NCBI GenBank assembly: GCA_012719445.1
Contig: JAAYAH010000281.1
Location: 1 to 64,000 of the forward strand
DNA length: 64,000 nucleotides
DNA from: Actinomycetales bacterium
GTDB lineage: Bacteria > Actinomycetota > Actinomycetes > Actinomycetales > Kineosporiaceae
Direction of reading: 5' to 3'
The position numbers were made by a program, and so were the translations under genes. The first letter of the stretch is position 1. Every line of letters begins with the position of its first letter. Positions 26,632 through 32,362 of the stretch are shown here, piece by piece. The notes below the pieces were generated by a model. It made no database searches. It was not told the origin of the DNA and was given only the letters and a program-made list of their open reading frames with translations.

Positions 26632-26686
26632 TCTTGCCCTGCCGCCGGTGGGCGGTGCCGGACAGGGACGGGTCGAGAGGACCAGG

Positions 26687-27337
26687 GTGGGGCCAGTGCT
26701 CAGCGGCCAGGGGACGGGTCGCACCGAGGCCGTCGACCGCGTCCTCACCGTCCCCAACGTGTTGAGCCTGCTCAGGCTGCTCCTGGTGCCCCTGTTCGGC
26801 TGGCTCATCGTCACGCGGAGGGACGGCGCGGCCGTCGCCGTGCTGGCGGGCAGCGGCTTCACCGACTGGCTGGACGGCACCATCGCCCGGCGCTGGGGAC
26901 AGGTCTCCCGGCTCGGGCAGCTCCTCGACCCTCTCGTCGACCGGCTCTACATTCTGGCGACCCTGCTCGGCCTGACCTACCGGGGCGTGCTGCCGGTGTG
27001 GCTGCTGGCCGTGCTGGTGCTCCGGGACGTCTGCATCGCGCTCACCCTGCCGGTGCTCAGGAGGTACGGGTACGCACCGCTGCCGGTGCACTACGTCGGC
27101 AAGGCCGCGACCTTCAACCTGCTCTGCGCCTTCCCGCTGCTGCTGCTCGGGGACGGGGCCGGCACCGCAGCCGAGCTCACCGGGGCCGTGGGGTGGGCGT
27201 TCGCCTGGTGGGGGACCGTTCTGTACTGGTATGCCGGGTTGCTCTACCTGGGTCAGACCGTCTCTCTCGTCCGCGCGGCCCGCGCCGAGGGGGACGGACC
27301 GGGGGCGGGGGCCGACGCGTCCGGGGGAAACGGGTGA
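26687..27337 (+). CDS. CDP-alcohol phosphatidyltransferase (PgsA2-like)
   Basis: 216 residues with about five membrane helices. The full catalytic signature D-x2-DG-x2-AR-x8-G-x3-D-x3-D is at Asp60, Asp63-Gly64, Ala67-Arg68, Gly77, Asp81 and Asp85 (DWLDGTIARRW...GQLLDPLVDR). Such enzymes join a CDP-activated lipid to glycerol phosphate or another alcohol; the position matches Rv1822 (pgsA2), whose product is not settled, so phosphatidylglycerophosphate or cardiolipin synthesis are both possible. The GTG at 26687 has GAGAGGA five bases upstream. The stop overlaps the next gene by GTGA. Confidence 0.88.
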   Translation: MGPVLSGQGTGRTEAVDRVLTVPNVLSLLRLLLVPLFGWLIVTRRDGAAVAVLAGSGFTDWLDGTIARRWGQVSRLGQLLDPLVDRLYILATLLGLTYRGVLPVWLLAVLVLRDVCIALTLPVLRRYGYAPLPVHYVGKAATFNLLCAFPLLLLGDGAGTAAELTGAVGWAFAWWGTVLYWYAGLLYLGQTVSLVRAARAEGDGPGAGADASGGNG

Positions 27338-28383
27338 GCAGCGGGGAGTGTGGTGGTCGACGTGCCACTATTGGCGAAGTGGCCCCTGGTACGACTGCTC
27401 CGGACCGGAACGGGCGCCCGGTGACGGGCGGCGTCCCGCGGCGGGTCGACGCCTCGAAGCTCCTCTACGAGGTGATGAGGCATCCCCTGGACCCCGGGTA
27501 CGAGCTGGCGGCTCGCGACCGTGACCGCGACCCGGACCGGCGGCGGCCGCTGTCCCGCGGAGTGGTCACCATGGTGCTCGCCGTCTTCCTGGCCTTCGTC
27601 ACCGTCTCGGCGGTGCGGGACCTGCGCGCGCCCGAGCCGGAGACCCTGCGGTTGCGCCGCAGCCTCGAACAGCAGATCGAGGAGCGGACCAGGGTGGTCA
27701 AGGAGCGCCAGGAGGCCAACGCGACGCTGCACCAGGCGATCGCCTACCGGCAGGACGAGGAGCTGACCCAGCGGGGGGCCGCGGAGCTGGCGACCCGGAT
27801 GGAACGGCTGAGCGTCGCCTCGGGGGAGCTGCCCGTCCACGGTCCTGGGGTCGAGCTGACCCTCTACGACGCGGAGTCGGAGGGCGGGGACTCCGTCGGC
27901 GGCCTCCGGGACGACCCCGCGAGCATCGAGGGGAAGGTCGTCGACCGGGACCTCCAGGTGGTCGTCAACGGGATGTGGGTCGCCGGTGCGGAGGCCGTCT
28001 CGGTGAACGGGCAGCGGCTCACGGCGCTCTCCGCGATCCGCGGCGCAGGCCAGGCCATCCTCGTGGACTACCGGCCGCTGGTCCCGCCCTACGTCATCCG
28101 GGCGATCGGCGATCCGGCCCAGCTCCAGGCGGGATTCGCCGCGGATCTCGCCGGTTCCTACATCCAGACCCTGCGCAACAACTACGGGATCACCTCGACG
28201 ATGGACGTCAAGGACACGCTGACCGTTCCCGGTGCCGGGGAGTTCTCCCTGCACTGGGCACAGCCGGAGCATCCCCAGGAGACCGGGTACCCGTTCGCCC
28301 GTCCCGGGGCCGACGGCAGGGGTACCGCAGCGACGCCCCTGCACAAGACGCACAGCACTACCGACACGGAGGTGTCACCGTGA
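27334..28383 (+). CDS. DUF881 family membrane-anchored protein (first copy)
   Basis: 349 residues. A cytoplasmic basic segment (DRDRDPDRRRPLSRG) leads to one membrane helix (about 80-98, VVTMVLAVFLAFVTVSAV). Next is a coiled coil (LRRSLEQQIEERTRVVKERQE) and the extracellular DUF881 domain with GPGVELTLYDAE, VVDRDLQVVVNGMWVAGAEA and PYVIRAIGDPAQLQAGF. The family is near-universal in Gram-positive bacteria, paired with the sbp gene, and resembles sporulation or cell-envelope proteins; its role is not established. GTG 27334 overlaps the pgsA-like stop; a GTG at 27379 is possible but has no ribosome site. It matches the place of Rv1823. Confidence 0.85.
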   Translation: MSSGECGGRRATIGEVAPGTTAPDRNGRPVTGGVPRRVDASKLLYEVMRHPLDPGYELAARDRDRDPDRRRPLSRGVVTMVLAVFLAFVTVSAVRDLRAPEPETLRLRRSLEQQIEERTRVVKERQEANATLHQAIAYRQDEELTQRGAAELATRMERLSVASGELPVHGPGVELTLYDAESEGGDSVGGLRDDPASIEGKVVDRDLQVVVNGMWVAGAEAVSVNGQRLTALSAIRGAGQAILVDYRPLVPPYVIRAIGDPAQLQAGFAADLAGSYIQTLRNNYGITSTMDVKDTLTVPGAGEFSLHWAQPEHPQETGYPFARPGADGRGTAATPLHKTHSTTDTEVSP

Positions 28384-28712
28384 TCGCCGTCCTCGGGCTG
28401 ATCCTCGGCATCGGAGCTGGACTGGTCTTCGAACCGACGGTTCCGATCTGGTTGCAGCCGTACCTGCCCATCGCGGTCGTCGCGGCCCTCGACGCCGTCT
28501 TCGGGGCGCTCCGGGCGGTGCTGGACGGTGTGTTCGACGATCGCGTGTTCACGGTCTCCTTCCTGTCCAACGTCGTCGTCGCCGCCCTGATCGTCTACCT
28601 GGGTGACCAGATGGGCGTGGGGTCCCAGCTCTCGACGGCCGTGGTGGTGGTCCTGGGGGTCCGCATCTTCTCCAACGCCGCCGCGATTCGCCGGCACCTC
28701 CTCGGAGCCTGA
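28380..28712 (+). CDS. sbp: Small basic protein (DUF1290)
   Basis: 110 residues, almost all membrane: helices at about 2-17, 25-45, 55-73 and 82-97. The family core is FEPTVPIWLQPYLPIAVVAA, followed by LDAVFGALRA and FLSNVVVAALIVYLGDQMGV. The GTG start overlaps the upstream stop by four bases. It corresponds to Rv1824 and is always found between or beside DUF881 genes; a joint membrane complex is likely but unproved. Confidence 0.9.
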   Translation: MIAVLGLILGIGAGLVFEPTVPIWLQPYLPIAVVAALDAVFGALRAVLDGVFDDRVFTVSFLSNVVVAALIVYLGDQMGVGSQLSTAVVVVLGVRIFSNAAAIRRHLLGA

Positions 28713-28713
28713 G

Positions 28714-30468
28714 ATGGCGACGGCGGACAGGTCAGGAACGGCAGGCCCGGCTCCGGACGAGCCGGAGGGCACCGACAGCCAGCCCCGGTCGACCGGGGGG
28801 TCGGCGCCGGCTCCCGAGGTCCCCGCCTCGTCCGGCGAGGACGAGCTCTCGGCCTCGGTCGAGGAGGAGCCCACCGGTGCTCCCGAGGCCCAGGGCAGGG
28901 ACCACGACCAGGACCAGGACGACGGTGCCTCCGCCGGTGGAGGCTCAGGGGACGACGTCCAGGACGAGGCCGTCCCCGAGGGCGCCGCCCCCGGGAGCGA
29001 TGCCGACTCCGACGACTCCGACGACTCGGGGGACCTCGGTGACGACGGAGCGCCCGGCGGCGCCACGGACACCGCCGAGGTCGGCGACGGCAACCCCGTC
29101 GACGACGGGAGCGACGCGGATGCCGGAGGTGCCCTCGACGAGCCGCCCCCCGACGACATCGGCCGGTCGACCGCCGGTCGTGCCGCGGCCGAGGGCGAGG
29201 CTGCCGAGAACGACGTCGAAGCCGACGCCGGTGACGACGAGGCCGAGGCGGCGCCGGTCGGGGACGGCGGTCAGGAGCCCTCGGGCAGCGGTGGTCGCGG
29301 CGAGCGCGAGGGAACCGCCCCGGCCGAGGCCGAGCTCGACGAGGGCGGCCCGGCCGGCGTCCCGTCCCCGGACCCCGGCGAGGACGCGGACGGCTCCCTC
29401 CCGGGCCACCCGGGGGACGACGACCGGGCCCCCGAGCCCAGGGTCCTCGCGCCGGGGCGCCACCGTCCCGGCAGGGTCGCGCCGCCGCCCCGGTATCCCG
29501 GTCCGGCGGGAGCGGGTGGGCTCGACGCCGCGGCCGGGCTGCGGCCGGCGGATCCGCGGACGGCACAGGGCAGGCAGGCCCGCCCCCACCGTCCGGTCTC
29601 CCCGGAGGGTGTCGGCGTCCCGCCGCCGCCGAGGTTCGCCCGGCCATCGCAGGAGCCGGGCCAGGACCGCAGGGTCGGCCCCGAGCCCGGCACGGCACCG
29701 GGGACTCCGGTCACGGGTCCCGCGGTCCCACCGGTTGCGCCCAGCGCCAGGAGGCGGCTCCTCGCCGGGATGAAGCCCCGGGCCACCAGGGGCCAGCTCC
29801 TCGGCGGGCTGCTGTGCATGGTGCTGGGCTTCGCTCTCGTCGTGCAGGCCCGCTCCACCCAGGAGCAGGGGCTGTCCTCGCTGCGACAGGCGGATCTGGT
29901 GCGGATCCTCGCCGGGCTCACCGATGAGGCCACCCGGCTGGAGGAGGAGGCCAGGTCGCTCCAGTCCACCTACGACGAGCTCCGGTCCGGATCGGGGACC
30001 TCGGAGGCGGCCGAGGAGGCCGCACGGGAGCGGCTGGAGGTTCTCGGCATCCTCACCGGGACCGAGCCCGCCGTCGGACCGGGGATCGTGCTGGAGATCT
30101 CCGACCCGGAGGAGGCCGTCGGCGCGGCGGAGCTGCTCGACACCCTCCAGGAGCTGCGGGATGCCGGGGCGGAGGCGATCCAGATCGGTGGCACCCGGAT
30201 CGTGGCGAGCACGTCCTTCGTGCGGAACATGGACGAGCCCGGGATCCGGGTCGACGGTAAGCTCCTTCGCCAGCCCTACGTGTTCAAGGTCATCGGTGAT
30301 CCGCAGACCCTGGCGACGGCGCTGGACATCCCCGGAGGGGCGCTGGAGGTGCTGCGTCAGCAGGGGGGCGAGGGCAGGGTGAGTCAGAGCCAGACCGTCG
30401 AGGTGTCCGCCGTCCGGGACGTCCCGGCGGCCCGGTACGCCCAGCCGGCACCCGCGGCGACACCCTGA
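28714..30468 (+). CDS. DUF881 protein with a ~350-residue disordered acidic/proline-rich N terminus
   Basis: 584 residues, more than twice the usual DUF881 length. Residues about 15-235 are low-complexity and strongly acidic (runs such as DADSDDSDDSGDLGDDGAPG). Residues about 240-352 turn basic and Pro-rich (APGRHRPGRVAPPPRYPGPA). One membrane helix follows (about 361-379, LLGGLLCMVLGFALVVQA), then a coiled coil and a complete DUF881 domain (GPGIVLEISDPEE, GTRIVASTSFVRNMD, PYVFKVIGDPQTLATAL). The tail should lie in the cytoplasm. The ATG is one base after the sbp stop, and codon use stays GC-rich throughout the tail, so it is not a misread frame. It matches Rv1825 by position. The tail may bind a positively charged partner or form a condensate; its function is unknown. 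Confidence 0.85.
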   Translation: MATADRSGTAGPAPDEPEGTDSQPRSTGGSAPAPEVPASSGEDELSASVEEEPTGAPEAQGRDHDQDQDDGASAGGGSGDDVQDEAVPEGAAPGSDADSDDSDDSGDLGDDGAPGGATDTAEVGDGNPVDDGSDADAGGALDEPPPDDIGRSTAGRAAAEGEAAENDVEADAGDDEAEAAPVGDGGQEPSGSGGRGEREGTAPAEAELDEGGPAGVPSPDPGEDADGSLPGHPGDDDRAPEPRVLAPGRHRPGRVAPPPRYPGPAGAGGLDAAAGLRPADPRTAQGRQARPHRPVSPEGVGVPPPPRFARPSQEPGQDRRVGPEPGTAPGTPVTGPAVPPVAPSARRRLLAGMKPRATRGQLLGGLLCMVLGFALVVQARSTQEQGLSSLRQADLVRILAGLTDEATRLEEEARSLQSTYDELRSGSGTSEAAEEAARERLEVLGILTGTEPAVGPGIVLEISDPEEAVGAAELLDTLQELRDAGAEAIQIGGTRIVASTSFVRNMDEPGIRVDGKLLRQPYVFKVIGDPQTLATALDIPGGALEVLRQQGGEGRVSQSQTVEVSAVRDVPAARYAQPAPAATP

Positions 30469-30524
30469 GCGTCCGCGGCGACCTCCTGGGCACGGCGGGG
30501 CGACCCGGCGGACAGGCCACCGGC

Positions 30525-30545
30525 TGACCGGTCCGTCACCGGTCA
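30525..30545. promoter_or_regulatory. Inverted repeat before gcvH
   Basis: TGACCGGT (30525-30532) and ACCGGTCA (30538-30545) flank five bases, 16 bases before the gcvH start. It could be an operator or a leader hairpin occluding translation; no glycine riboswitch motif was seen. Confidence 0.35.
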
Positions 30546-30561
30546 CGACGACAGGAGCACC

Positions 30562-30948
30562 ATGGCAGAGATCGCTGTCCCGGGGGACCTGCACTACACC
30601 CGGGACCACGAGTGGGTCCGGGTCGAGGGCGACCTGGTGCGGATGGGGATCACGGACTTCGCGCAGGACGCGCTGGGGGATGTCGTCTACGTCAACCTCC
30701 CCGCGCCGGGCTCGCGGGTCTCGGCGGGCACGGCATGCGGCGAGGTGGAGTCGACGAAGAGCGTCAGCGACGTCTTCGCCCCTCTCGACGGCACGGTCGT
30801 GGAGACCAATCCGCAGCTCGGCACCGCCCCCGAACTGGTGAACAGCGACGCCTACGGCCAGGGGTGGATGATCCTGCTCCGTCCCGACGCGCCCGCCGCG
30901 GTCGAGGGGCTGATCGACGCCGACGGGTACCGTGCCATGCTGGGGTGA
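30562..30948 (+). CDS. gcvH: Glycine cleavage system H protein
   Basis: 128 residues, full length. The lipoyl domain signature GEVESTKSVSDVFAP places the lipoyl group on Lys66. The H protein carries the aminomethyl group from the P protein to the T and L proteins. An ACAGGAG ribosome site precedes the ATG. The P protein gene (gcvP) is 4 kb downstream on the same strand; gcvT is not in the window. It corresponds to Rv1826. Confidence 0.95.
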   Translation: MAEIAVPGDLHYTRDHEWVRVEGDLVRMGITDFAQDALGDVVYVNLPAPGSRVSAGTACGEVESTKSVSDVFAPLDGTVVETNPQLGTAPELVNSDAYGQGWMILLRPDAPAAVEGLIDADGYRAMLG

Positions 30949-31015
30949 CGGACCGGGGAGGGGTCGTCCGGGGCAGGAGACCGAACGGATCGGTGCATCC
31001 GGCCGAACCGGACTG

Positions 31016-31043
31016 CCCTCGACCTGGTGTCGAGGGTTAGGCT
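31016..31043 (+). promoter_or_regulatory. Candidate garA promoter with an inverted repeat upstream of the -10
   Basis: CCCTCGAC (31016-31023) and GTCGAGGG (31029-31036) form an 8-base inverted repeat directly next to TAGGCT (31038-31043), a plausible -10. A protein bound there would sit on the -35/spacer region, as MerR-type activators do. The leader to the garA ATG would be about 60 bases. Confidence 0.4.
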
Positions 31044-31110
31044 TGGTCACTCAGGGCGCCCGGATCGTTCCGGACGCGAGACACGGGGATGCGGGTTACG
31101 AGGAGGCGAC

Positions 31111-31596
31111 ATGTCGGTTCCCCCGCCGGGGGTCGGCCCAGGGCCGGGCGAGGACGCTCCACAGCAGGCGCGGACGCCGGGAGCCGTCGACACCACGCTG
31201 TCGTTCGGCGCCATTCCTCCGGTCGAGGCCGCCGAGCCGACGGAAGCGAGGATGACGGCTGCCGACGAGGGAGCCGTCCATGCCCTGCCCGCCGGGTCAG
31301 CCCTGCTCATCGTCCAGCGGGGCCCCAACGCCGGTGCCCGGTTCCTGCTCGACTCCGGGCGCACCACGGCCGGCCGCCGGCCGGACAGCGACATTTTCCT
31401 CGACGACGTGACCGTCTCGCGGCGGCACGCGGAGTTCCTCTACCGGGACGGCAAGTTCGTCGTCCGGGACGTCGGGAGCCTCAACGGCACCTACGTCCGA
31501 CGGGACCGGATCGAGGAAGCGGTCCTGGCCGACGGTGACGAGGTACAGATCGGCAAGTACCGGCTGGTCTTCCACCCCAGCCCTCGGGACGTGTGA
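31111..31596 (+). CDS. garA: FHA-domain signalling protein, GarA/OdhI type
   Basis: 161 residues. A flexible N terminus contains the adjacent threonines Thr28-Thr29 in VDTTLSFGAIP, the place where GarA is phosphorylated by Ser/Thr kinases such as PknB or PknG. The FHA domain (about 70-150) has GRRPDSDIFLDDVTVSRRHAEF and SLNGTYVRRDR. In the known family the unphosphorylated protein inhibits 2-oxoglutarate dehydrogenase and glutamate dehydrogenase, setting carbon/nitrogen flow. The N-terminal ETTS motif of mycobacteria is here VDTTLS. A GGAGG site precedes the ATG. It corresponds to Rv1827. Confidence 0.9.
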   Translation: MSVPPPGVGPGPGEDAPQQARTPGAVDTTLSFGAIPPVEAAEPTEARMTAADEGAVHALPAGSALLIVQRGPNAGARFLLDSGRTTAGRRPDSDIFLDDVTVSRRHAEFLYRDGKFVVRDVGSLNGTYVRRDRIEEAVLADGDEVQIGKYRLVFHPSPRDV

Positions 31597-31621
31597 ACCG
31601 GGACGAGGCGGTGAAAGCGCC

Positions 31622-32362
31622 GTGGTGAACGCGGCGATCGGTCGTCGGGGGGGCTCCGACGCGACGATGAACATCGGCGAGGTGCTCGCCGCGTTGCGCC
31701 CGGAGTTCCCGGACATCTCGATCTCGAAGATCCGCTTTCTCGAGGAGCGCGGGCTCGTCGATCCGGAGCGGACTCCCTCGGGCTACCGCAAGTTCTCCCA
31801 CGCCGATGTCGAGCGGCTGCGGTTCGTGCTCAGCCGTCAGCGGGACCACTACCTCCCGCTCCGGGTGATCCGCGAGTACCTCGACGCCCTGGACCAGGGG
31901 CTCGACCCGGAGCCGCTCCCCGGCGGCCCCCTGCGCGGTCCCCGGCTGGTCACGGATCCGCCCGAGGACGACCGGCCCGGCGCCGCGGCGGACGTCCCGT
32001 TGCAGCGGGACGAGGTCCTCGCCCGTTCCGGGGCCGACACCGAACTGCTCACCGAGCTGGAGTCCTACGGTCTCGTGGCACCGCGGCCGGGCACCGGGCA
32101 CTACGGGGAGGAGGCGGTCGCCGTGGCGGAGGCGGCGGTCGGCCTCGCGGCGTTCGGGGTGGGACCGCGTCACCTCAGGGCGTTCCGCTCGGCGGCGGAC
32201 CGGGAGGCGGGCCTGGTGGAGCAGATCGTCGCGCCGCTGCGCCGGCAGCGCGGCACCGAGGCCGCGGCCCGGGCCGAGGAGACCACCCGGGAGGTCGCCG
32301 CACTGTGTGTCCGGCTGCACGCCGCACTGGTCAGGGCGGCCCTGGGGCGTGGGTCCGGCTGA
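31622..32362 (+). CDS. ftsR: MerR-type regulator, FtsR/Rv1828 family
   Basis: 246 residues. The N-terminal winged helix (about 15-90) reads MNIGEVLAALRPEFPDISIS then FLEERGLVDPERTPSGYRKF and DVERLRFVLSRQRDHYLPL, matching the actinobacterial FtsR group that activates ftsZ in corynebacteria. A Pro/Gly-rich linker follows (about 105-140), then a helical C-terminal domain. Two adjacent in-frame GTG codons (31622, 31625) can serve as the start. It may control its own neighbourhood, including the inverted repeat before garA. Confidence 0.85.
   Translation: MVNAAIGRRGGSDATMNIGEVLAALRPEFPDISISKIRFLEERGLVDPERTPSGYRKFSHADVERLRFVLSRQRDHYLPLRVIREYLDALDQGLDPEPLPGGPLRGPRLVTDPPEDDRPGAAADVPLQRDEVLARSGADTELLTELESYGLVAPRPGTGHYGEEAVAVAEAAVGLAAFGVGPRHLRAFRSAADREAGLVEQIVAPLRRQRGTEAAARAEETTREVAALCVRLHAALVRAALGRGSG

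Follow-up and report, generated by a model that had tools for sequence, protein, structure and literature searches.

The window, i.e., the whole 64,000 nt stretch of DNA analyzed here, contains a DUF881 gene (coordinates 28,714–30,468, + strand) whose 584 aa product carries a real N-terminal tail of 345 residues, for which an acidic spacer under loose constraint is a likelier role than that of some special novel device. This reading accounts best for the data, with the fewest additions, and we consider it reasonably probable that this quickly evolving tail is an acidic spacer, under weak constraint, of a membrane protein that is itself probably associated with division.

The affiliation of the product to the DUF881 family, already proposed in an earlier note on this DNA, was confirmed both by sequence and by fold. 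PF05949 is its sole Pfam match (residues 441–577; 30,034–30,444, +; E = 1.6e-31, and 109.5 bits against a curated cut-off of 25), and the same domain occurs in Mycobacterium tuberculosis Rv1825 (PDB 3gmg; sequence E = 9e-28). An AlphaFold model made with 55 aligned orthologue fragments, which excluded the tail (mean pLDDT 89.6, pTM 0.68), had 3gmg_A as its top match in the PDB (E = 2.6e-15, TMt 0.88); no other entry reached E ≤ 0.001, PII-like and designed ferredoxin folds being weaker matches. In the model, an unbroken helix leaves the membrane and continues as a coiled-coil-like stretch, with an alpha/beta domain after it; the modeled fragment begins at residue 339, so its helix 21–87 corresponds to residues 359–425 (29,788–29,988, +), and the solved chain of 3gmg corresponds only to the part from the end of this long helix onwards. 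Hydropathy identified one hydrophobic segment in the whole protein, in agreement with this membrane helix. Immediately before it there is a basic juxtamembrane strip (residues 346–358; 29,749–29,787, +), and the first 16 residues past the tail (346–361 in the window) are net positive in 175/175 orthologues, with a median of +5. The tail is probably cytoplasmic, and the coiled coil and the domain extracytoplasmic.

The reading frame opens with an ATG at 28,714, with a single base between it and the DUF1290 stop codon; 6 nt 5′ of it there is a sequence similar to a ribosome binding site, GGAG (28,704–28,707, +). It is very improbable that the long frame is an artefact, caused either by a true start at Met353 or by misassembly of the tail DNA. 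Up to the helix, the only in-frame ATG, GTG or TTG codons are those of residues 1 and 353. Met353 does follow an AGGAGG, but this sits 15 nt upstream, and a Met at that position occurs in just 3 of the 55 sequences of the orthologue alignment, in which the window is counted; a start near residue 350, with which the earlier note had reckoned, is unlikely for these two reasons and was rejected. Our own codon-usage gene finder, with a slight preference for ATG, picked the start at 28,714, and the sense frame scored top of the six frames for residues 1–100 and 101–237. An artefact would be favored by the score of residues 238–345, where two antisense frames were slightly higher (−0.03 and −0.06) than the sense frame (−0.12), and by an antisense frame of 701 aa (28,945–31,050, −) that is open across the tail, although GC-rich codon bias can yield such frames. 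Nevertheless, other genomes of the host's family carry long in-frame tails at the same place, which argues against it.

Residues 1–237 (28,714–29,424, +) constitute an acidic low-complexity segment with 42 Asp, 26 Glu, 7 Arg and no Lys, that is, 68 D/E to 7 K/R and a net charge per residue (NCPR) of −0.26. It is followed by a Pro-rich and weakly basic segment of 108 aa (residues 238–345; 29,425–29,748, +) with 28 Pro, 15 Arg and 7 D/E (3 Asp, 4 Glu), whose NCPR of +0.07 results from +0.13 in residues 238–290 and +0.02 in residues 291–345. The earlier description of the tail, as some 220 acidic residues followed by some 110 basic, Pro-rich ones, was thus correct for the acidic part and for the prolines, but “basic” is a generous label for the second segment; lysine is absent from all 345 residues. 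The segregation of charge claimed for the tail exceeded that of shuffled tails, since its best charge split was reached by only 1 of 2,000 shuffles, and its local charge patterning by 9 of 2,000. Among the 338 genes that were called over 479 kb of this genome, a set that includes the window and is thus not a blind sample, no other stretch with few order-promoting residues is as long, by the rule used, as that of the tail (352 aa, against 215 aa for the next). From this composition, the tail is probably of the disordered type, as had been proposed. That long acidic tails might be common throughout the genome was also considered and rejected, as no such habit was seen either in the 338 called genes or in FtsQ. 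The FtsQ of this genome has no comparable tail, showing a basic stretch of ca. 55 aa preceded by a frame that overlaps a MurC-like open frame; its 916 aa open frame is mostly an out-of-frame reading of that upstream frame, which is MurC-like as judged by eye.

DUF881 is named in few papers of a library without most subscription journals, and none of the papers listed was devoted to an actinobacterial DUF881 protein, though relatives were present in 69 of 98 searched genomes (the window's own included) and in 130 of 197 searched genomes of the class. Our orthologue set is not a random sample of them: it combines the best 80 of 113 entries of a list of relatives, all 69 genomes of the first search, and 49 of the 130 class genomes (the 30 best, window included, and 19 hand-picked), with the genomes without a match (29/98 and 67/197) left outside the tail comparison. 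From 195 loci with a domain match, 177 were left after removing 6 without an anchored start and 12 duplicates; L092 and L129 were dropped because their start and the DUF1290 stop are over 60 nt apart. The resulting 175 orthologues comprise 78 from the list of relatives, 20 + 37 from the 98-genome search, 21 + 18 from the class search, and the window. L092 (771–1,092) has a tail that begins like those of its sisters, and the first start in the domain frame appears 332 nt past the DUF1290 stop, which points to a shifted frame or to faulty assembly of this repetitive tail.

Tail length varied from 0 to 568 aa among the 175 orthologues, with 11, 17, 37, 67.5, 147 and 233 aa at the 10, 25, 50, 75, 90 and 95 % quantiles; tails had at least 60 aa in 48 cases, at least 100 in 27, at least 150 in 18, at least 200 in 12 and at least 345 in 3. 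This comparison of N-terminal lengths, proposed as a check in the earlier note, places the window tail as extreme but not unique, and agrees with the view that usual members lack such a tail, which is true of the majority. The 13 genomes with the host's family code are represented by 11 (L092 and L098 are absent), with tails of 345, 218, 247, 152, 170, 286, 289, 319, 81, 35, and 568 aa, and the other 164 rows have a median of 33 aa, with at least 100 aa in 18 and at least 200 aa in 5. Three genomes with this code share their proteins with records named Kineosporia (L093/L007, L106/L008 and L103/L010), and the window's genome probably belongs to the family of that genus. The NCBI label Kineosporiaceae is wider, and genomes bearing it outside the host's family code have tails of 13 (L006), 23 (L012) and 88 aa (L080). 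Tails of at least 150 aa occur in five family codes plus Kribbella. Large differences separate even close relatives: the 22 rows of Kribbella span 32–212 aa, and the tails of Arsenicicoccus (28–48 aa) adjoin a relative with 451 aa. On a quick domain tree of 174 rows, with many weak forks, the class of at least 200 aa requires a minimum of 7 changes and that of at least 100 aa a minimum of 17. Exact peptide repeats, in three or more copies, appear in 17 of the 175 tails. The longest one, that of L238 (568 aa), contains exact repeats, with PGAQV present seven times. L063, titled Streptomyces sp. SID13031, falls inside Kribbella on the DUF881 tree and is probably misnamed.

The tails evolve faster than the domains they precede, with dN/dS values of 0.47–0.74 for tails, whose alignments are uncertain, and of 0.07–0.25 for domains in 6/6 hand-picked pairs. 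Since tail dN/dS was below 1 in the six pairs and the charge split of the window tail exceeded shuffles, there may be selection on tail sequence. Acidity was kept in some pairs and less well in others, as indicated by the acidic sites that remained acidic: 69/81 in L088/L089, at 65 % tail identity, 22/29, 21/32 and 16/18 in three further pairs, and only 14/29 in L007/L238 and 8/20 in L206/L210 (the L210 tail contains unknown residues). This uneven retention weakens the case for tails being selected to be acidic. There is a negative bias: the net charge is negative in 43 of the 48 tails of at least 60 aa (only 9 of the 48 have an NCPR of −0.2 or lower) and in 115 of the 163 of at least 10 aa, with 28 positive and 20 neutral, although these counts are not independent because the rows are related. 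In the same 103 loci, second-copy tails were net negative in 65 and those of the first DUF881 copy in 20 (Wilcoxon p = 2.6e-8 on NCPR, ignoring kinship).

A dedicated device made of an acidic and a basic block is not supported. The 27 tails of at least 100 aa range in NCPR from −0.31 to +0.09 and are more acidic distally in 15, so the block order was rejected as a family rule. Additionally, tails go from 35 to 568 aa within the host's family code while the domain is kept, the dN/dS of tails contrasts with that of domains, and none of four motif patterns tried ties the window tail to others beyond chance.

The gene is part of a + strand cluster that starts with a CDP-alcohol phosphatidyltransferase (26,648–27,337; PF01066, E = 4.1e-37; start from the ORF tool), followed by the first DUF881 copy (27,334–28,383; PF05949, E = 1.5e-38; putative start, anchored on the upstream gene), a small DUF1290 membrane protein of the Sbp type (28,380–28,712; PF06947, E = 6.8e-36) and, directly, the Rv1825-like second copy. 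This is the order that we take to exist around Rv1825, i.e., a first DUF881 copy, DUF1290 and then Rv1825 directly. Of the 175 rows, which include the window and were selected for a DUF1290 neighbor, all but one (174) have a first copy upstream. Downstream there are genes for a glycine cleavage H protein (30,562–30,948, +; PF01597, E = 8.1e-39), an FHA protein (31,027–31,596, +; PF00498, E = 1.1e-19), GarA/OdhI-like by its position, and a MerR regulator (31,535–32,362, +; PF13411, E = 5.5e-12), FtsR-like by its position, the last two with starts from the ORF tool; these are followed by genes for a bifunctional nuclease and another MerR protein. The FHA, MerR, nuclease and second MerR genes correspond to the odhI/garA-ftsR-nuclease-MerR cluster, for which the available portion of PMC6683498 notes strong conservation in Actinobacteria.

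Among 14 control genomes searched, B. subtilis gave matches to both Pfam families, DUF881 and DUF1290; the others, including C. glutamicum, gave none. We take YlxW to be a DUF881 protein and YlxX a DUF1290 protein. According to an excerpt of PMC12548448, both localize to midcell in C. difficile and lie downstream of ftsQ in Bacillota, whereas in the window two DUF881 copies flank DUF1290. The location of these Bacillota proteins makes the DUF881 family a candidate for division and is the reason for taking the module as division-associated; extended across phyla from a distant relative, it suggests a division-site location of the module, and renders plausible the division link put forward in the earlier note.

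Two other readings of the tail deserve consideration. In one of them, which we judge unlikely, the tail would serve for recruitment or condensation, its acidic block binding basic division partners, its Pro/Arg block binding acidic ones or folding back on the acidic block, and the complex becoming concentrated. The charge split of the window tail is in its favor, as are two analogies known to us from parts of their sources. GlpR from C. glutamicum, a membrane protein of the divisome, has two disordered regions of opposite charge in the cytoplasm, and deleting one of these leads to an elongated multiseptal phenotype (PMC10522489, in part). The likeness is one of working only, both being actinobacterial membrane proteins with oppositely charged cytoplasmic regions of this type and a link to division, a probable one for the window protein; GlpR, as described there, spans the membrane with three predicted helices and has known partners, and the window protein, with its single hydrophobic segment, is not a GlpR. 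The other analogy is the acidic Pro-rich linker of PopZ, which tunes condensates and, at −0.28 per residue, is close in charge density to residues 1–237. The accessible part of PMC9512792 describes this linker as conserved in length and make-up and as adjoining an oligomerizing domain, whereas second-copy tails have neither a conserved length nor a conserved acidic and Pro content. Against recruitment there are also the block order common to just 15 of the 27 long tails, the tail of at most 37 aa in half of the orthologues, and the lack of a comparable tail in FtsQ of the same genome.

A free spacer with short lineage-specific motifs, for phosphorylation or docking, is the other reading, and for the window we hold it to be quite improbable. 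In Kineosporia part of the tail does appear specific, because 6/6 Kineosporia-type tails keep the 13-residue motif R[ST]RVIRPAG[GA]RRP, and five of them also contain TxP[IM]P. The rest of the tail varies in these six (L007, L008, L010, L094, L099 and L238), which span 81–568 aa. TxP[IM]P is absent from the window tail, whose scores for two consensus forms of the Kineosporia motif were reached by 535 and 1,642 of 2,000 shuffles; a shared motif (RVLAPGRHRP in the window against RVIRPAGGRRP) was consequently rejected as no better than shuffles. The window tail is alone among the 175 in having PPPRY and PPPPRF, a possible example of such a motif, but PPPR[YF] is absent from its nearest relative, L004. 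An FHA gene in the same cluster would suit a phospho-threonine reading of the TxxI-like motifs, although both phosphorylation and FHA binding are guesses.

A conserved cytoplasmic part of the module is found in the first copy. Its tail in the window has 74 aa, counted from the GTG at 27,334, in line with the earlier remark that the upstream partner lacks such an extension, and first-copy tails span 21–95 aa (median 52) in 103 loci with a start anchored on the upstream gene. It includes a conserved peptide, RRVDASKLLYEVMRHPLDPGYELAA (27,439–27,513, +), whose relaxed core pattern, written post hoc after viewing the sequences, was found in 88 of 103 whole tails, compared to a mean of 0.6 and a maximum of 3 in 200 rounds of shuffling, and in 0/103 second-copy tails of the same loci. 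A stricter pattern, applied to segments cut 35 residues before the helix, occurred in 82/165, with 9 more cut off; exact LDPGY was present in 62/174 first copies and LDxx[YF] in 112/174. The peptide looks like a docking motif and is a better candidate for recruitment than the second-copy tail. Contrasting it with the varying second-copy tail shows experimenters which cytoplasmic part merits the first pull-down. Very tentatively, and with a low probability in our estimation, the module might split its cytoplasmic work, with a SMTLLTEVMERPLDPGYAAAA-like docking peptide of the first copy for a core division partner and a freely evolving acidic tail of the second copy setting spacing and electrostatics at the same site; if true, this would be an undescribed link between the cytoplasm and the envelope in actinobacteria.

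With the loosely constrained spacer as the preferred reading, the protein would belong, as second DUF881 subunit, to a conserved envelope module of the type DUF881-DUF1290-DUF881 that probably acts at the division site. It would have a disordered polyelectrolyte tail in the cytoplasm at the N-terminus, then a single membrane helix, a coiled coil on the extracytoplasmic side and an alpha/beta DUF881 domain. The chief role of the tail may be that of a bulky spacer with negative charge at the membrane; it would be repelled by the acidic membrane face, and the basic juxtamembrane strip would keep the helix in place. Weak selection would act on disorder and net negativity rather than on a set length, block order or sequence, and the tail would therefore grow and shrink. 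The genome contains a third DUF881 gene elsewhere, in whose open frame, as judged by eye, a long cytoplasmic tail would not fit. Its product (L001) has an acidic, Gly/Thr-rich tail at its end, presumably extracytoplasmic.
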